NCBI RefSeq assembly: GCF_031851795.1
Contig: NZ_CP134696.1
Location: 5,766,001 to 5,830,000 of the forward strand
Origin: Pontibacter sp. G13
Lineage (GTDB): Bacteria > Bacteroidota > Bacteroidia > J057
DNA length: 64,000 nucleotides
Reading direction: 5' to 3'
The translations under genes and the position numbers were made by a program. The notes below the pieces were generated by a model. That model was not told the DNA's origin. It did no database searches and worked only from the letters and a program-made list of their open reading frames with translations. This document shows, piece by piece, positions 46,170 to 57,427 of the stretch. Numbering within the stretch: position 1 is the first letter of the stretch; each line of letters begins with the position of its first letter.

Positions 46170-46583
46170 TCATGACAGCTCCCAAACCTCGTGGTGGACA
46201 AGATAGCGGTAGAGCCAACTGTATTCTACTTCGAGGTGGTGAGTGTCTCTGAGCCAGGCCTGTAGCTCCAGAAGAGTGCCCTCGGGATGGGTCTCCTTCC
46301 AGACTTGAATCCTGTCTAGATAGGGAGCCACTTTGGAACCTTTATTTTTGGGATAATGGAGGGAGAGGAGTCCTTCGAAGCCGCCTTCCAGAAATTGCTT
46401 CATCCAATTGGTGATCGTTTTTTCACTGACTCCGATCATCTTGGCAATCTGATGGACGGGGTATCCATAGTGCCGCAATGACAAAGCCAACAGACGACGA
46501 GAAAGCTTTTTGCTTTGCGTCTCCTGCATCAAGTCCGCCAATTGGTAGGTCTGGTCCGTTGTCAGCCGAATCCGATAGCTCAT
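46170..46583 (-). CDS. Orphan IS630-type N-terminal HTH protein (transposase fragment)
   Basis: A 137-residue protein matching the N-terminal DNA-binding part of IS630/Tc1-like transposases. It has two helical HTH units: RRLLALSLRHYGYPVHQIAKMIGVSEKTITNWMKQFLEGGFEGL and the winged part LLELQAWLRDTHHLEVEYSWLYRYLVHHEVW. The DDE catalytic domain that normally follows is absent; a stop codon comes at once. It could be a decayed insertion sequence or a domesticated repressor. No terminal inverted repeats are obvious around it. Confidence 0.72.
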   Translation of the reverse strand: MSYRIRLTTDQTYQLADLMQETQSKKLSRRLLALSLRHYGYPVHQIAKMIGVSEKTITNWMKQFLEGGFEGLLSLHYPKNKGSKVAPYLDRIQVWKETHPEGTLLELQAWLRDTHHLEVEYSWLYRYLVHHEVWELS

Positions 46584-48736: not shown

Positions 48737-49351
48737 ATGGCCGAATTTGTCTTGTCCGAAGCGGAATTCAACGTGTTGTCAGATCGGGATTTTATGCCGA
48801 TCAAGCAGGAAGTCTGTCGGAAATTGGAAGGATTGCTTGCAGAATTAAGGGGGAGATTGAAGGGGACACTGCTTGAAAATGAGGGAGTTTGGCCGGAGAG
48901 TTGGCTGAATGGCGTCGGGAAAATTTCCAAGGGGGAAAACTACCAGAGCTACGCTTGGCGGGTGCTGGATTTTCCTGCGACGTTCGATCAGCAGGATTGG
49001 TTCACCTTCCGGACCGTGGTACTCTGGGGACATCCGATCGGCTTCCACCTGATTTTGTCCGGAATCTGGAAAGATCGTTTGGGGCAACACCTACTTCATC
49101 ATCGGGGCGCGCTTGAATTGGACTGGTATCTCTCCGATCAAACATCTCCTTGGCTCTGGGAGTATCCGCATCCCGATTTGATCCCGCTCATGGAAGCCTC
49201 TCAAGACCAGTGTCAAGATATGTTGGCACGACACGCTTTCCTCAAACTATCCCACTTTCAGCCCCTCAAGCGATATGCCCAGCTACCGAAGGACGGCAAC
49301 CGGGCATGGATGGATCTTGAGCAGATTTTGAAGGCTGGTCTAGCGCTTTAG
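48737..49351 (+). CDS. Hypothetical protein
   Basis: A 204-residue soluble protein, unfamiliar to me. It has a helical N-terminal half (SDRDFMPIKQEVCRKLEGLLAELRGRLKG), a central YQSYAWRVLDFPATFDQQDWFTFRTVVLWG and a Trp-rich stretch. The whole reads like an intact protein without repeats. It overlaps the convergent gene at 49340-49888 by 12 bases. Function unknown. Confidence 0.62.
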   Translation: MAEFVLSEAEFNVLSDRDFMPIKQEVCRKLEGLLAELRGRLKGTLLENEGVWPESWLNGVGKISKGENYQSYAWRVLDFPATFDQQDWFTFRTVVLWGHPIGFHLILSGIWKDRLGQHLLHHRGALELDWYLSDQTSPWLWEYPHPDLIPLMEASQDQCQDMLARHAFLKLSHFQPLKRYAQLPKDGNRAWMDLEQILKAGLAL

Positions 49352-49888
49352 GCGATGGACCTGAACGCCCTGTTGCTCCCAATTGTGCATGACCTTGTCA
49401 AATCGAACTTGCTGGAAGTCCGCATCAATATATGGCGTGAATTCCACCTCTTCTCCTTGGTAGCGGAATTTGAGGGTATTGGCAGATTGATCTTTGGTGA
49501 ATGCGTGGTTGGAAGTTCCGGCATCAGTGGTGCTGATCACCCAATGTTGGGGAGCTGTCACTTCTTGAATGTCCAGGAGTGAAATTTCCTCCAGGGTAGT
49601 ACCGCCCTTATCTGTGACCAAAAGACCATTTGGTCCCAATTGGAGCTTCTGGTTTTGGAAGGATTTCTTGAGCACCTTCTGAGATTTGAGGTTCCAAATG
49701 GTGGCCACCAGTCCGATCAATCCAAGCCCCACCAAAACTGCGGTTCCGAAATTCCCCCACTCTCCAATGAGCCTCCCGAAATACAACAGGCCATACATGG
49801 AAATAAAGGAGGCAATAGCCGCATACTTGACATTCTGGTTCCACTCAGCGTAGCGCTTGGGTTGATGGATGAGTTTGGCTTTGAACAT
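49340..49888 (-). CDS. Two-helix membrane protein, paralog 1 of 3
   Basis: A 182-residue protein with two hydrophobic helices (about 23-40 and 46-65) followed by a cytoplasmic beta-rich domain: LQLGPNGLLVTDKGGTTLEEISLLDIQEVT, a Trp-containing segment and a C-terminal helix NWEQQGVQVHR. The LxLxxxGL and ISLxxIxxV pattern recalls bacterial PH-like domains. The two genes upstream encode proteins of the same design. A perfect 8-bp-arm palindrome lies 15 bases before its start. Confidence 0.7.
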   Translation of the reverse strand: MFKAKLIHQPKRYAEWNQNVKYAAIASFISMYGLLYFGRLIGEWGNFGTAVLVGLGLIGLVATIWNLKSQKVLKKSFQNQKLQLGPNGLLVTDKGGTTLEEISLLDIQEVTAPQHWVISTTDAGTSNHAFTKDQSANTLKFRYQGEEVEFTPYIDADFQQVRFDKVMHNWEQQGVQVHRLKR

Positions 49889-49902
49889 GGCGATTGAATT
49901 TT

Positions 49903-49919
49903 CTTAACGTTACGTTAAG
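49903..49919. promoter_or_regulatory. Palindrome upstream of paralog 1
   Basis: CTTAACGT-T-ACGTTAAG, perfect arms. Its place 14 bases before the start codon suggests a translational or transcriptional control site. Confidence 0.5.
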
Positions 49920-50016
49920 GATTTCACCCAGTTTTTCGGGTTGGAAGGTTCGCTATTCGTCAAAAGACTTGGAGCCCTCTAGACCTGCGATTGACGATGC
50001 TGGAGACGCAGGTTGC

Positions 50017-50580
50017 CTAGGAGGTTTTCTCTATTTCTATTCCTGCTGCTTCCCATTCCTTCATCAGCTTGAGGAATTGCTGCTCGGCGTAGTGAGAGTC
50101 CCAATAAAACTGGAATGTCTCCGATTCGTCCCCATGGCGGATAGAAAGTCGGTTAGGCTCTGGATGTTTTTGCCTGTGAAGACCAAAGCTGAATCCCTTG
50201 TTGTGAGTACCCCAAATGGGGTCATGGGTATTTTTATAGGACACCTCCCGGATCTCGTCCAAGGAAATATTCAGCATTTCGACGTACCCGTCCTTGGAAT
50301 TCAAGACCATCTGCTCTGGACTCAACACTAACCTTGACCCAGATTTCCTCCATGATTCAAGGCCAATGAAATTGAAACTCCATCCCATGATCCCTATCCA
50401 TATGAAAATCATGATTAGGGCCCATGAATTTTTTGACATGGGGATATAGCCAAGCCTTTGGAGTTCGAAGCCACCCGCAAGACCGAAAAAGACCACAGTG
50501 TCAGTTACAGACACGATGAAGGATCTTTTTTTGATTGTTTTTCTTCTGTGAGCGTCGATGAGGGGAATCACGATAGTCAT
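50017..50580 (-). CDS. Two-helix membrane protein, paralog 2 of 3
   Basis: A 187-residue protein of the same layout as its neighbours: two hydrophobic helices (about 24-41 and 53-72), then LVLSPEQMVLNSKDGYVEMLNISLDEIREVSYKN and a C-terminal helix LMKEWEAAGIEIE. The C-terminal WEAAGIEIE corresponds to WEQQGVQVH in paralog 1. Function unknown. The gap to paralog 1 is 128 bases. Confidence 0.68.
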   Translation of the reverse strand: MTIVIPLIDAHRRKTIKKRSFIVSVTDTVVFFGLAGGFELQRLGYIPMSKNSWALIMIFIWIGIMGWSFNFIGLESWRKSGSRLVLSPEQMVLNSKDGYVEMLNISLDEIREVSYKNTHDPIWGTHNKGFSFGLHRQKHPEPNRLSIRHGDESETFQFYWDSHYAEQQFLKLMKEWEAAGIEIEKTS

Positions 50581-50731
50581 AGGTTGAAGTATGGATTGGG
50601 AGGACTGTTAACAGGAGGTACAAAGAAACAGTATCCGCTTGGATTTCATGAATGGATACATTCGGATTCCACCAATAGGCGATCTTCTTTTGGAGAATGG
50701 CCTAATCCGCGGAATATCCATGCACAGAGGA

Positions 50732-51406
50732 TCATTCATTTGAGTTCGTCAGAAAGGGTGTGGATCGATCGGTAGTTGGGAGGCTGACAGGTGATGCATG
50801 GGGCCGGCGAGACAATTCCGCCCATTGGTTCCGAAACTCACGAGGAACCAGAACACGGGCACCTGAGTGATTATATGTCCAAAGCATTTCCAAGACACTG
50901 AGGTCATTGGGGCTTTTCCAGTACCAGCAAAATGTGTGACGATCTTGATCGGTCTGGACGATCAGGGTAGCGGGTTCCTCTTCAAATCGATACCCCCTGA
51001 GCCTGCCATATTGCCACATGAGGCCCGGATAGTCGGTTTGTGTGCTATATCTACAAACTCGGATGTGGTCAACAGGAATGTCCAGGATCGTTTCTTGAAG
51101 TTCTTCGTCAAACAATCGAATTCCCTCTTTCGAGAGATAAAGCATTTGACCTCCTTGCAAACACTTTTTTTTGAGCGGGAGGAATCGAAAGAGGTTCCAA
51201 CACGCCAATATGTGCCAAGCCAAAAATATCACCAGAATCAAGCCGAGGTCCAACATCGCTTGCCCCCATTCAAAACGAGGCAAAACAATCACGATGACCA
51301 TTACGACTAGACCTAATCCGAGAAGCCGGAAGATTCCTTGATGGATGAGGGATCGGATTTTGAGTAGGGCAGGTTTGGAGCAGAGGGAGAGGGAAAGGTG
51401 ATCCAT
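50732..51406 (-). CDS. Two-helix membrane protein, paralog 3 of 3
   Basis: A 224-residue protein starting at 51406 (MDHLSLSLCSKPALLKIRSL). Two helices (about 28-45 and 54-73), then LYLSKEGIRLFDEELQETILDIPVDHIRVCRYS, matching the paralogs. It has an extra C-terminal tail rich in Ser/Pro/Arg. The three genes are tandem on one strand and diverging, indicating old duplications. Confidence 0.67.
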   Translation of the reverse strand: MDHLSLSLCSKPALLKIRSLIHQGIFRLLGLGLVVMVIVIVLPRFEWGQAMLDLGLILVIFLAWHILACWNLFRFLPLKKKCLQGGQMLYLSKEGIRLFDEELQETILDIPVDHIRVCRYSTQTDYPGLMWQYGRLRGYRFEEEPATLIVQTDQDRHTFCWYWKSPNDLSVLEMLWTYNHSGARVLVPREFRNQWAELSRRPHASPVSLPTTDRSTPFLTNSNE

Positions 51407-51554
51407 GTAGGCTAATTTCTGCGAAAGAATGAACAAAACTACCCAGGTTGGCACTTTGTCCCTAACGGTGTTTTGGGTACTTTATAAGTAAGGTTCCGGA
51501 CCATTCTGCCAGTCAAAGACGGCTTCTTCCCGCTAATTTCTTAAAAAGAATCAA

Positions 51555-51842
51555 ATGGACTGGAGCAAAGTATTGGTAGTCAGTCATTCACAATCGGAGT
51601 TGGACGAATTGTCCAAAGCCTTGCAATCCAAGGGCTACCAAGTGTCCACCGCGCGAGATCTCTCCGAATCGATCCGCAATTTCACCATGCAAAAGCCTGA
51701 TGCTGTCGTCATCGGGTCTACCATGGACCTTTCCACCCGCAGCCACATAAAGGACCGTATCCAATCGGATGCACCCAATATCCCCGTGATCGACGGTGAT
51801 CCGAGGACCTTGGAGTTACAGCTTCGGCAGCACCTGAAATAA
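51555..51842 (+). CDS. Degenerate receiver-domain-like protein
   Basis: A 95-residue single-domain protein with the alternating beta/alpha pattern of response-regulator receivers (VLVVSHSQSELDELSKALQSKGYQVSTARD..PDAVVIGSTMD..IPVIDGD). The acidic pair is replaced by Ser10-His11 and the phosphoacceptor Asp by Gly54. It is shorter than a full receiver (about 120). It therefore cannot be phosphorylated in the usual way and is probably a pseudo-receiver. A small ferredoxin-like gene follows after 21 bases. Confidence 0.62.
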   Translation: MDWSKVLVVSHSQSELDELSKALQSKGYQVSTARDLSESIRNFTMQKPDAVVIGSTMDLSTRSHIKDRIQSDAPNIPVIDGDPRTLELQLRQHLK

Positions 51843-51863
51843 TTTCCACTCAATACCAACTGT

Positions 51864-52100
51864 ATGTCTTCCCAACCCTCAAAACAACCGATCAAGGAGT
51901 ACTCCACAGACGAGGTGACCGTGATTTGGAATGCCAACAAATGCATTCATTCCGGCAATTGCGTCAAGGGGCTCTCAAGCGTGTTCAATCCCGATGCCAA
52001 GCCTTGGGTGAATGTCCAAGGGGCTTCTGCACAGGAGATCCGCAACCAGATCGATCAATGCCCATCGGGCGCCTTGTCCTATCGAGTATCTAGCAAATAG
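51864..52100 (+). CDS. YjdI-like mono-cluster [4Fe-4S] protein
   Basis: A 78-residue protein of the divergent Fer4_19/YjdI type. The pattern is NANKCIHSGNCVKGLSSVFNP, PW and a final QIDQCPSGALSYRV, with cysteines in CX5C and CP. It should bind one iron-sulfur cluster. Such proteins are often encoded with CDGSH-type or acetyltransferase genes, not seen here. Downstream of the pseudo-receiver and closed by a hairpin. Confidence 0.88.
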   Translation: MSSQPSKQPIKEYSTDEVTVIWNANKCIHSGNCVKGLSSVFNPDAKPWVNVQGASAQEIRNQIDQCPSGALSYRVSSK

Positions 52101-52917: not shown

Positions 52918-52959
52918 TAAAAGGGACGGAATTACGTACCAAGGCACATAATTCCGTCC
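52918..52959 (-). terminator. Terminator of the EboD-like gene
   Basis: A perfect 11-bp stem, GGACGGAATTA with TAATTCCGTCC, followed on the minus strand by CTTTTATGTTT. 18 bases after the stop codon. Confidence 0.85.
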
Positions 52960-52976
52960 TAATCATGTTAGGTATT

Positions 52977-54155
52977 TCACCCGTATTTCGCTTCGTGTGG
53001 TTGAGCCTGCCAAGCCATCAAATAGCGGATAGAGGCCCGAAGGATGGACAAGTCGATGTCCTCGACGTAGCGGTTTTGTCCGATGGTGGTGGGGAGTTGC
53101 AGCGCCAATTTTCCCCCGATTTCCTGACGATATTCTTCTAAACCCTTGGCAATGGATTCTTCGTGGTCGGGAAGGCTCATGTAGGACGAAAGCTCCGGTA
53201 CGTACAGATCGTACCCCAAATCCCGGAACATGCTCAGTGCCTTGATGCAGCATGATTCCGAGATCACATCCGCATGCATGGAATAGGCAATGTCCAATGC
53301 CACGCCCACGATCAGCGCCTTGGCATAGGAGAGTTGGAAGTCGGTGAGTTCGAGCAGCTTTTGCGTCGCCCAAATCCCGAATCCATGTACCTGCCGATTG
53401 TGCCTTTCAAATGGATCTCGAGCCCGAAGGAGATCGATTTGAAGTTGATTGACACGGTAAATCAGCTCCTCTGCTGCCTTGGACGAGCGGTTGACAATTC
53501 CTTCCAGATTGTCCTCGATGAAATCGTAGATCCGGTGGTCGTAGGCAATCCCCATCCTGAGTGCCCCGATCAAGCCTTCTCGCCAAGTCTCGTCGTCGAT
53601 ACTTTCCAACAGGCTCATGTCCAGTAAGATAGCTTTCGGGGGAGCGTAAACGCTCTGGAAATCAGGTCGCTTGCTGTGAATGGCGTTTTTGATCGCTCCC
53701 GAGGTCTCGAACATGGACAACAGGGTAGAGGGGGTTTTCAAGACCGGAATCCCCCCGTGGGTGGTGCCTGCGACATAGCCCACGGTATCCAGAAAGGCCC
53801 CGCCTCCAATTGCCCATATCAGGGCGTGGCGATCCAGTTGGTTGTGTTGGATTCCCGCTCTCAAATCTTGCCATGCCGCGGGATTGGCCTTGAATTCTTG
53901 GCCTCCGGGAAGCCATACAGGAGCTTCGCTGAGTTGCCATGATTTGCCAGCATACTTCATGACCAGCTCGATCCGCTTGGTCAATTCACTGGCCATACTG
54001 CGTAGTCCAGAATCGATGACCACCCATACACGAGTGGCAGGCGCTTTTTTGGGGAATAAGTCAGAGAGAAAGGGAGTGGAAGGACTGATCGGTGCCTTGG
54101 TCAGGTACACATCATATTCGAGGGATACCTGGATGTTTTGCGTAAGTGTGCGCAT
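52977..54155 (-). CDS. EboD-like dehydroquinate-synthase-fold protein lacking metal ligands
   Basis: A 392-residue member of the sugar-phosphate-cyclase superfamily. NAD-binding part is WAIGGGAFLDTVGYVAGTTHGGIPVLKTPSTLL (about 114-146), then FETSGAIKNAI and VYAPPKAILLD. Sequence FG-x-W-x-T-x-K-L near 259-267 followed by LTDFQLSYAKALIVGVALDIAYS matches the EboD group of DHQS-like proteins. The metal-binding positions have changed: Glu is Gly197, the first His is Ile261, the second is Gln265 and the third is Tyr277. The 4- and 16-residue spacing of the His sites is kept. It is probably a pseudoenzyme or uses another chemistry. No other ebo genes adjoin. Confidence 0.82.
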   Translation of the reverse strand: MRTLTQNIQVSLEYDVYLTKAPISPSTPFLSDLFPKKAPATRVWVVIDSGLRSMASELTKRIELVMKYAGKSWQLSEAPVWLPGGQEFKANPAAWQDLRAGIQHNQLDRHALIWAIGGGAFLDTVGYVAGTTHGGIPVLKTPSTLLSMFETSGAIKNAIHSKRPDFQSVYAPPKAILLDMSLLESIDDETWREGLIGALRMGIAYDHRIYDFIEDNLEGIVNRSSKAAEELIYRVNQLQIDLLRARDPFERHNRQVHGFGIWATQKLLELTDFQLSYAKALIVGVALDIAYSMHADVISESCCIKALSMFRDLGYDLYVPELSSYMSLPDHEESIAKGLEEYRQEIGGKLALQLPTTIGQNRYVEDIDLSILRASIRYLMAWQAQPHEAKYG

Positions 54156-54495
54156 CTAAAATTTGCCTGAGTCTTGGGCGGCAGGGCTCTGGGGAGTCAG
54201 GACTAGCCCAGTGAACTGCCGAGGTTAATGTCCAGCGAATGAGCAGGTAGTGGAGATTCTAGGCGATCTGTGAGGTATATGTCAGTGGAGCGGATACTCC
54301 ATCTGTTAGGTAGTTTTTGTTGTGGTTTATTTTGAAAGGTGTAAGGTAAGGGATTTTACCAATAATTCAACCAATCTCCGGATGATTGATTACATCCGCT
54401 GCGTGTTCGGTATTTGTGGTTTGCGATGGGGTTGCCATTCCTGCCGCTTTTCCGGATCTTGCCGACCTGTTTTTCCCAGAATTTGGCCACGCTTC
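54156..54495. other. Divergent intergenic region
   Basis: Promoters for the EboD-like gene (minus) and the glycosyltransferase (plus). An open frame runs into the latter from 54322 but its first 58 codons are Cys/Arg-rich and lack protein character. No structured elements noted. Confidence 0.4.
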
Positions 54496-55648: not shown

Positions 55649-56227
55649 ATGCAGCGACTCAAGGAATTCATCGACTCCATTTCCCCGATTTCCGAAACTA
55701 CTTGGCTGGAAGTCGCCCCGCTTTTTGCCCCTGAAAAATTGGAACCGCAGGAATTTTTCGTGGAATCAGGAAGGTATGCCCAGAAAATGGCCTTTCTGGA
55801 ATCGGGTTGTGTGCGTGCTTTTTTCACCAACAGCCAAGGCAAGGAGTACAACAAGCAGTTTTTCGTGGGGCCGAGTATGATTGGCGCCTACACGTCGCTC
55901 CTGACCCAGACGCCCAATCGCATTCCCCAGCAGGCACTTACCCATTGCAAGCTCTGGGTGGCCCATTATGCCGAATTGGAACGTTTGTACGCCCAATTTC
56001 ACGATCTGGAAACCTTGGGCAGAAAAGTGGCAGAGCACTACTTCCTGGAAAAGGAGCGCAAAGAATTGGAAATGGCCCTCATGGATGCCACCGAGCGATA
56101 TCTCCTGTTTCGTCAGACATTCCCCACGCTTGAGCAATTGGTTCCCCAGTACCAAATTGCCTCTTATCTGGGCATCTCATCTACCCAGCTCAGTCGCCTC
56201 AGGGCCAAGCTCAAAAATTCCTCCTGA
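55649..56227 (+). CDS. Crp/Fnr-family regulator
   Basis: A 192-residue protein with an N-terminal cyclic-nucleotide-binding-like domain (about 20-115: EFFVESGRYAQKMAFLESGCVRAFF) and a C-terminal HTH (about 145-190: RYLLFRQTFPTLEQLVPQYQIASYLGISSTQLSRLRAKL). The cAMP-contact Arg/Ser signature is missing, as in most Bacteroidota members, so its ligand is unknown. The SMP-30-like gene starts 79 bases downstream on the same strand. Confidence 0.88.
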   Translation: MQRLKEFIDSISPISETTWLEVAPLFAPEKLEPQEFFVESGRYAQKMAFLESGCVRAFFTNSQGKEYNKQFFVGPSMIGAYTSLLTQTPNRIPQQALTHCKLWVAHYAELERLYAQFHDLETLGRKVAEHYFLEKERKELEMALMDATERYLLFRQTFPTLEQLVPQYQIASYLGISSTQLSRLRAKLKNSS

Positions 56228-56305
56228 CCATTCCGATATTTACCTATGTAAATGCGATTGGGGGAAAATCCCTCCAGCTTTGCCATTCATCCAAAAACAT
56301 CGACA

Positions 56306-57427
56306 ATGGCAAACCAAACCATCATCCCATTCGCTTTTCTCCTCGCCCTAGGTATCTGCTCGTCCTGTTGGCAGGGATGCGCACTTGAACCGCTCGCTTG
56401 GCAACCTCCCGTAAAACCCAATCTCCAAGCAGATTTTCCCGAAAACGATCGCCTACTGACCGCCCGTCAAATCGACTTGCAGGGATGGTATGGACCCGAA
56501 GACATCGTGTTTGATCGAGCAGGAAATATGTACTGCGGTGTCCATATTGGCGCTGATGATTTCAGCGATGGGAAAATCCTCCAAATCTCCCCGGATGGAA
56601 ACGTGGAGGTTTTCTTCGATGCGGGAGGCTGGGTATCAGGATTGCATGTCGACCGCACGGGGCACCTCATCGCCTTGAGCCACAAACAGGGATTGATTCG
56701 GATTTCTCCCCAACAAGAGGTGACCGTTTTGGCGGAAACCGATGAATTTGGCCGCCGGTTCTTGATCCCCAATGGCTTGGATGTAGCCTCAGATGGATGC
56801 ATCTATTTTTCCAATACCTCCCACGATGCCCCGTATGACGTGAAGTACGGCCGCAAATTGATCATGGAGCTACAACCCAATGGCGGCCTTTATCAATACA
56901 ATCCCTCTACCGGAAGGGTCACTACCTTGATCGATGGGACTTACTTTGGCAATGGCGTCGTGCTTTCCGAAGCGGAGGACTATCTCCTGATGACCGAAAC
57001 CACCAAGTACCGCATCATTCGATATTGGCTGAAAGGGGAGAAGCGTGGGACTTCCGAGGTATTTATGGATAATTTGCCGGGCTTCCCAAATGGGATCTCA
57101 CGGGCCTCGGATGGACATTTCTGGCTGGGGTTTTCAACCCGAAGAAATGATGCCCTAGACAAGATTCACCCCAAGAAGGGCCTCAAAAAATTTGTGTACG
57201 GACTCCCCGAATTCATGCAGCCCAAGCAAGAACCATATGGCTTGATCTTGAAAATTTCCCCACAAGGAGAGATCCGAGAGCTACTGTCAGATCCGACAGG
57301 GACCGTGATTCCAGAGGCTGGCGCCGTCAAGGAGCACGAAGGGACCTTGTACATTGGGGGCGATATTGTGCCCTATGTCGCGGCCTTTGTGTTGGGGAGG
57401 GGAGAGGAACAACAAGCCCAACCTTGA
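56306..57427 (+). CDS. SMP-30/strictosidine-synthase-like lipoprotein
   Basis: A 373-residue six-bladed beta-propeller starting at 56306 (MANQTIIPFAFLLALGICSS). A hydrophobic signal ends in a run of Cys (CSSCWQGC), compatible with a lipoprotein. Propeller motifs: GPEDIVFDRAGNMYCGVH, PNGLDVASDGCIYFSNTSH, NGVVLSEAEDYLLMTETTKYRIIRYWL, GFPNGISRASDGHFWLGF. Nearest described relatives are gluconolactonases and plant strictosidine-synthase-like (APMAP) proteins, so a lactonase or esterase role is likely. Downstream of the Crp-family gene. Confidence 0.87.
   Translation: MANQTIIPFAFLLALGICSSCWQGCALEPLAWQPPVKPNLQADFPENDRLLTARQIDLQGWYGPEDIVFDRAGNMYCGVHIGADDFSDGKILQISPDGNVEVFFDAGGWVSGLHVDRTGHLIALSHKQGLIRISPQQEVTVLAETDEFGRRFLIPNGLDVASDGCIYFSNTSHDAPYDVKYGRKLIMELQPNGGLYQYNPSTGRVTTLIDGTYFGNGVVLSEAEDYLLMTETTKYRIIRYWLKGEKRGTSEVFMDNLPGFPNGISRASDGHFWLGFSTRRNDALDKIHPKKGLKKFVYGLPEFMQPKQEPYGLILKISPQGEIRELLSDPTGTVIPEAGAVKEHEGTLYIGGDIVPYVAAFVLGRGEEQQAQP

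Follow-up and report, generated by a model that had tools for sequence, protein, structure and literature searches.

EboD proteins are the clade of sugar phosphate cyclases encoded by the ebo cluster and were proposed to form a cyclitol from sedoheptulose 7-phosphate (PMC5133447). Separate or duplicated copies of eboD are already known and are not new in themselves. One Nostoc carries eboD without the other ebo genes and N. punctiforme has a second eboD; no mention of lost active sites in such copies was found there (PMC5133447). In Nostoc, deletion of eboA, B, C, E or F left the scytonemin monomer in the cytoplasm, eboD not being among the genes deleted (PMC6282210). A precedent for a dead paralogue that controls its partner is prozyme (PMC5201418). 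In the top-ranked open-licence PMC literature, we found no pseudoenzyme described for EboD or for sugar phosphate cyclases.

Here we analysed a 64,000-nucleotide stretch of Pontibacter sp. G13 (contig NZ_CP134696.1, positions 5,766,001 to 5,830,000), called the window below. It contains altered copies of eboD and eboE, which we call pseudo-eboD and mini-eboE (Table 1). On balance, sequence comparison and structure prediction favour the reading that these copies became a pair of non-catalytic proteins, one a folded pseudoenzyme and the other a half-length EboE without a conserved loop. Computation underpins this reading on four counts: the genes are homologous to eboD and eboE, conserved catalytic residues have been lost, the sequence is coding-like, and the genome has an ebo-type operon at another site.

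Table 1. Features of the pseudo-eboD/mini-eboE locus, in window coordinates
Feature	Position	Strand	Remarks
Pseudo-EboD, 392 aa	52977..54155	minus	predicted sugar phosphate cyclase fold; metal ligands and many conserved catalytic residues gone
Codons 117-119, conserved GGG of the dinucleotide site	53799..53807	minus	kept; alignment with EboD
Codon 197, Gly for metal-ligand Glu	53565..53567	minus	alignment with EboD
Codon 261, Ile for first metal-ligand His	53373..53375	minus	alignment with EboD
Codon 265, Gln for proton-accepting His (His275, A. nidulans DHQS)	53361..53363	minus	alignment with EboD; PMC7144000
Codon 277, Tyr for next metal-ligand His	53325..53327	minus	alignment with EboD
Mini-EboE, 150 aa	52191..52643	minus	resembles the EboE N-terminal half, without loop 93-114 and with an altered EPEP motif
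Hairpin, 16 pairs and T-rich tail, terminator-like	52924..52959	minus	just 3′ of pseudo-eboD; 1 site found, shuffles average 3.4
Promoter-like site, 10/12 to sigma-70 consensus	54256..54285	minus	upstream of pseudo-eboD; weak, 2 sites in region, shuffles average 3.1

Descent and genomic setting of pseudo-EboD

The interval 52977-54155 had been annotated as an EboD-like cyclase homologue. This was confirmed, with the gene lying on the minus strand. Its frame begins with ATG at 54155 and runs to 52977 over 392 codons without a stop; frame 1 of the plus strand contains stops. Pfam detected PF01761 (DHQ_synthase, 58.2 bits) and PF24621 (DHQS_C, 34.4 bits), both above cut-off, and no additional domain. 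These domains, together with the fold of a model that was built with EboD rows, place pseudo-EboD in the sugar phosphate cyclase superfamily. The top NCBIfam model was NF004852 (PRK06203). Since the 274.8 bits obtained on this best model did not reach the curated cut-off of 333, the score points to EboD descent yet leaves the protein outside the curated family. The host's own EboD gave 569.3 bits on the same model.

Pseudo-EboD is homologous to EboD over almost the full length, at 26-34% identity. It retains N157, W262, D288 and Y291, residues by which EboD differs from the dehydroquinate synthase (DHQS) rows; this residue list came from an alignment version still containing a truncated copy of the query, which was excluded from the 38-EboD set used below. 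In a tree, pseudo-EboD grouped with EboD against 8 DHQS with an SH-aLRT of 100. It sits at the unresolved base of EboD, on a terminal branch of 8.6 changes per column as compared to a median of 0.54, too long to fix its position inside EboD. Pseudo-EboD is of EboD rather than DHQS descent. By score, the host EboD ranks 81st of 118 against pseudo-EboD (query counted; 30% identity), the best-scoring EboD, with 34% identity, belonging to other families of the phylum. Likewise, the host's best EboE row ranks 13th of 107 against mini-EboE. Because both copies score higher against genes of other genomes than against those of the host, recent local duplication is unsupported; pseudo-EboD may have arisen by an old duplication or by transfer.

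No orthologue of pseudo-EboD was found in 59 relatives (12 from the same family), nor in overlapping sets of 21 further genomes of the order, 394 further genomes of the class, 394 of the phylum and 128 genomes of another order of the phylum. In 222 genomes from another family of the class, none appeared among the matches listed either. Outside the host, the best matches had 26-35% identity, none of those listed coming near the score expected of an orthologue. At E 1e-25, none of the 12 same-family genomes other than the host gave a match. Seventy-eight plasmid records matched, with at most 31.7% identity among the 15 matches listed. Scans of genome contigs (26 pattern stretches) and of viral contigs (3 stretches), which detect close relatives only, yielded no relative. 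EboD-type matches in general were near-universal in one family within the class, where 202 of 222 genomes matched at 1e-15, and patchy in the sample of the whole class, where 20 of 395 genomes (one of them the host) matched at 1e-25, the two surveys differing in threshold.

The initial annotation had described the gene as standing alone, away from any ebo genes. This does not hold. Downstream on that strand, the next ORF after a gap of 333 bases is mini-eboE (52643→52191); the genome also carries an ebo-type operon, at a distance of 3.3 Mb. Mini-EboE matched NF035939 with an E-value of 1.2e-7 and 30.8 bits, over positions 12-84 of the 379 of the profile; the cut-off of 250 was not reached and the second half of a full-length EboE is absent. 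A profile of 108 EboE gave a clear match at residues 16-89 and a weak one at 89-108. Using MAFFT, mini-EboE could be aligned to EboE from position 1 to about 190, the likeness beyond residues 16-89 resting on MAFFT. In this N-half alignment, 57 well-filled columns have no residue in mini-EboE, hydrophobic character is kept at 37 of 48 columns (background 41%) and near-invariant charged or amide residues at 1 of 11. AlphaFold2 arranged five strands, with helices between them, into a half barrel at pLDDT 85.9, a fold partly imposed by the 32 canonical EboE rows supplied. A Foldseek search with this model returned nothing at E 0.001, the best match (0.01) being a xylose isomerase-type barrel. Within the class, 2 of 395 genomes matched mini-EboE. 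In the host, the matches are the query and the host EboE (E 1.8e-4); in the second genome, the match lies in a 405-aa frame directly after that genome's EboD.

In the host operon, EboA passed the domain model (171.1 bits, cut-off 50) and stayed below the family model (244.6 bits, cut-off 320), while EboC (398.8 bits), EboD (569.3 bits) and EboE (501.1 bits) were above their NCBIfam cut-offs. A TatD-type hydrolase (44.2 bits, below cut-off) and a 456-aa protein without NCBIfam match at 1e-10 were named EboB and EboF by position. Searching the host genome with the EboE family gave two places, the full gene and mini-eboE, the latter with 27.9 bits. AroB of the host is separate and normal (TIGR01357, 337.2 bits, cut-off 305). 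In order and strand, the altered pair is arranged as eboD and eboE are in the operon, with the 333-base spacer and its hairpin in place of the short operon junction. This hairpin may separate pseudo-eboD and mini-eboE into two transcription units, and it argues against a single operon. No match to eboA, B, C or F was found among the 1,560 frames of at least 25 residues in the window (best E 0.25). Family members are usually encoded in an ebo operon; the sole ebo-like neighbour of pseudo-eboD is the half-length eboE.

As for other genes of the window, the ferredoxin-like (Fer4_19) gene downstream of pseudo-eboD has relatives in 6 of the 12 other family genomes, and the glycosyltransferase upstream has none there at E 1e-20. 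Facing the mini-EboE gene, the plus strand at 51555-52100 carries this Fer4_19 gene (85.8 bits), whose product is a divergent mono-cluster 4Fe-4S protein, and a receiver-like ORF of 95 aa (24.2 bits, below cut-off). Three consecutive small ORFs of 182, 187 and 240 aa (49340-51454, minus) look like distant paralogues. Comparing them by phmmer gave single-target E-values of 2.5e-10, 1.9e-7 and 0.0066; Pfam gave nothing for two and chance-level matches for the third. A helix-turn-helix ORF with transposase-type matches (46170-46583, minus) is perhaps an insertion-sequence fragment. The protein encoded at 55649-56227 (plus) is cyclic-nucleotide-binding, and its best NCBIfam match, to the shell of family 2B encapsulins (23.5 bits against a cut-off of 400), most likely arises through the shared cNMP domain. 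The product of 56252-57427 (plus) resembles strictosidine synthase and matches the ScyD/ScyE family weakly (37.3 bits, cut-off 80). ScyE of Nostoc completes scytonemin in the periplasm after ebo-dependent export (PMC6282210); the nearness of this gene to the ebo-derived pair may or may not be due to chance.

Active site and predicted fold

Gly197, Ile261, Gln265 and Tyr277 had been proposed to occupy the Glu and three His positions of the DHQS active site. A MAFFT alignment of 38 EboD with 29 lower-scoring homologues, in which rows below 120 bits were taken as DHQS without being named singly, placed the four residues at these Glu/His/His/His columns, with the 4- and 16-residue spacing kept. 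By spacing, position 265 corresponds to His275 of A. nidulans DHQS, which takes the proton; the activity of M. tuberculosis DHQS is abolished by EDTA (PMC7144000). Spacing likewise equates positions 265 and 277 with H268 and H280 of C. albicans Aro1; Aro1 changed at both is inactive, and the same source counts all three His of Aro1, including the match of 265, as Zn ligands (PMC9074039).

None of 151 EboD rows (145 distinct sequences) shares the losses: all have E, H, H, H at positions 197, 261, 265 and 277. These rows comprise a set of 117 (38 + 79) and a further batch of 34. The 79 were the best 80 of 575, one identical row being dropped, and were partly found by the pattern RPLDFGHW, which contains one ligand; the remaining 72 were picked by score to the query and not by any ligand. 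The batch of 34 consisted of best-scoring loci, at most 30 per search, one search having matched 202 genomes. In the genome surveys, ligand positions were read in the fetched loci, namely the 38 EboD, which came from the surveys of relatives, class and phylum, and then these 34, which came from those of the other order and the other family.

At positions 197, 261, 265, 277, 200, 150, 156, 164 and 258, EboD has E, H, H, H, K, D, K, K and D (117/117 and 34/34), and pseudo-EboD has G, I, Q, Y, R, E, K, P and G. Because nine active-site positions, the four ligands included, are identical in every row of both sets, the ligand loss is not attributed to chance. R134, E268 and E279 are likewise invariant in the 117, and further changes at conserved positions of pseudo-EboD are R134G, K164P, D258G, E268L and E279K. 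We take the Lys of position 164 to be the NAD-side Lys; other columns were assigned to substrate, phosphate or NAD following what we assume to be their roles in DHQS. Overall, pseudo-EboD retains 40 of the 85 columns invariant in the 38 EboD and 32 of the 68 invariant in the 117. When each of the 38 was left out in turn, 85 columns were kept of the 85 to 89 invariant among the rest.

No in-register replacement was found that would indicate displaced ligands. The nearest candidates are E193, four residues or one helical turn ahead of 197 in a column that is Ser or Ala in EboD, and H257, four residues before 261 and eight before 265 in a column that is Leu. H252 stands nine residues before 261, and no His occurs within 16 residues of 277. 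Since H277, a required position, is without a substitute, a canonical metal site rebuilt with E193 and H257 seems unlikely. A sequencing artefact or frameshift was ruled out, as the frame is open throughout and the adjoining EboE copy is altered too.

The initial annotation had left a choice between a pseudoenzyme and a metal-free reaction. Sequence comparison supports the former: the Glu, His, His, His set of metal ligands and catalytic His that marks the EboD family is missing, and R134, K164, N165 and D258 are all changed. These changes, together with Q265, come on top of the metal ligands and disfavour a metal-free reaction; metal-free cyclisation by pseudo-EboD is unlikely. The NAD site had been regarded as intact, which stands in part. 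GGG, D123, K89, T144 and K156 are kept, but E86Q, D150E, K164P and N165D are changed, the roles of these individual residues presumably being those of DHQS.

The cyclase fold of pseudo-EboD looks to be kept, judging from conservation and from modelling. Hydrophobic residues remain at 106 of the 117 columns that are hydrophobic in at least 90% of EboD (91%; background 46%). In the leave-one-out controls, each EboD kept at least 93% of the hydrophobic columns and at least 97% of the charged or amide ones; with 91% against a lowest value of 93%, the core of pseudo-EboD is somewhat worse than that of any EboD. Invariant Gly and Pro are kept at 14 of 18 positions. Invariant charged or amide residues are identical at 11 of 34, and 24 of these 34 positions are still D, E, K, R, N, Q or H. 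The residues retained include D48, K89, R109, G117-G119, D123, T144, K156, N157, D179, D247, E250 and W262. This pattern may be read as selection on the fold with the chemistry released. AlphaFold2 gave a cyclase fold (pLDDT 88.7, pTM 0.89) which, as for mini-EboE, is partly imposed by the canonical rows supplied, here 36 EboD. The weakest ten-residue block, 251-260 (61), lies in the old substrate loop and includes H257. Using Foldseek and VIA-align, the best solved matches of the model were ValA (4p53, TM 0.84, Z 43.2 over 355 residues) and DDGS (5tpr, TM 0.83, Z 43.5 over 368). The model also resembles iron-type alcohol dehydrogenases, with Z about 24-26.

Coding constraint and candidate roles

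The synonymous codon fit of pseudo-eboD was 0.750, inside the range of 18 host genes (0.715-0.791). Random synonymous sets averaged 0.632, and none of 500 reached the observed value. Mini-eboE, with 0.741, is also within the host-gene range and was reached by 0 of 500 random versions. The in-frame codon score of pseudo-eboD (0.242) is inside the range of the same number of host genes (0.197-0.334), and that of mini-eboE, 0.172 per codon, is below all 18. Simulated neutral substitution of the host eboD to 34% identity, without indels, introduced 12.1 stops on average and left the frame open in none of 200 runs. Therefore, the frame was maintained through most of the divergence. Prolonged neutral drift is ruled out by this simulation, which would not detect selection that ended recently. 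As no orthologue was found, the argument for selection rests on one genome. From the sequence, the likeliest status of pseudo-EboD is that of a selected pseudoenzyme.

These results bear on whether the pair is a decaying second ebo locus, with two pseudogenes of which the 150-aa ORF would be a remnant of eboE. Such decay would fit an eboE of about half length with an internal deletion, the lack of eboA, B, C and F matches in the window, the spacer with hairpin in place of a short operon junction, the lack of an orthologue among the genomes searched and the in-frame codon score of mini-EboE under all host genes. We hold it to be quite improbable, given the stops that neutral drift would have introduced even without indels, the host-like synonymous codon fit of both ORFs and the mostly kept hydrophobic columns, although these points speak less to a very recent loss of selection. 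It is no more credible that pseudo-EboD is an altered catalyst, an NAD-dependent enzyme on the EboD fold (for example a sugar or cyclitol dehydrogenase or epimerase) that would be metal-free or use a shifted metal site. The proton-relay His is Gln and the NAD-side Lys is Pro164, H277 has no replacement, and H257 falls in the least confident part of the model. The likeness to iron-type alcohol dehydrogenases (Z about 24-26) does favour a catalyst, as do the kept GGG, D123, K89, T144 and K156, the kept H133, D247, E250 and W262, the new polar R200, Y277 and K279 at old active-site columns and the positions of E193 and H257 four residues ahead of two lost ligands. However, iron-type dehydrogenases likewise depend on a metal.

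The dinucleotide motif kept while the chemistry was lost, and a hairpin suggesting a transcription unit of its own, would also suit a ligand sensor, independent of the ebo operon, that signals the presence of NAD(H) or a sugar phosphate by binding it without turning it over. Such a sensor is unlikely, with no further Pfam domain in pseudo-EboD, an adjoining EboE half that points to the ebo system and an NAD site that is partly eroded. Against the non-catalytic pair itself stand this erosion and the conservative nature of many changes, and E193 and H257 could in principle be part of a shifted site.

In the preferred reading of a non-catalytic pair, both altered copies would work as binding proteins. 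Their most likely mode would be regulation or scaffolding of the working EboD and EboE, possibly through mixed dimers of paralogues or through competition for NAD or a sugar phosphate. As DHQS enzymes are dimeric (PMC9074039), a mixed dimer with the working EboD would be the simplest route. The dead EboD with its half EboE could in this way tune or localise an Ebo-dependent process. The Arg of position 134 presumably reaches into the active site of the partner subunit, as in DHQS. Since pseudo-EboD has Gly134 in place of this family Arg (117/117 EboD), the mixed dimer would be half defective, and damping would be likelier than boosting. Overall, pseudo-EboD is likely to serve the Ebo system without catalysis, as a partner or a regulator. 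More tentatively, and with some doubt, eboD and eboE may have been copied together and both stripped of catalysis to give a dedicated regulatory or carrier module, made of a full-length dead cyclase and a half TIM barrel, that controls the working Ebo enzymes or docks onto them.

Comparison with known systems

Pseudo-EboD shares with EboD the near-full-length homology and the four EboD-type residues N157, W262, D288 and Y291. EboD, however, keeps its metal ligands and scores above cut-off, whereas pseudo-EboD does neither and has a long branch. The fold is common to AroB, ValA and DDGS (TM 0.84 with ValA, 0.83 with DDGS); unlike AroB and the other sugar phosphate cyclases, pseudo-EboD has neither the metal ligands nor the catalytic His. 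Mini-EboE resembles EboE, the TIM-barrel metabolite traffic protein of NF035939, in its matching residues 16-89 and in the alignable region of EboE up to about position 190, but differs by the missing second half and loop 93-114. Prozyme, a dead paralogue of trypanosome AdoMetDC, is likewise kept beside a working enzyme. In contrast to the partner role proposed for pseudo-EboD, where G134 argues against activation through a shared site, it is a proven heterodimer activator (PMC5201418). EboD is very uniform, with nine active-site positions invariant in 151 aligned rows, and the ebo cluster is widespread and poorly understood. A folded and apparently selected EboD without ligands, beside a halved EboE, suggests that EboD and EboE may have a role in binding or assembly besides their chemistry.
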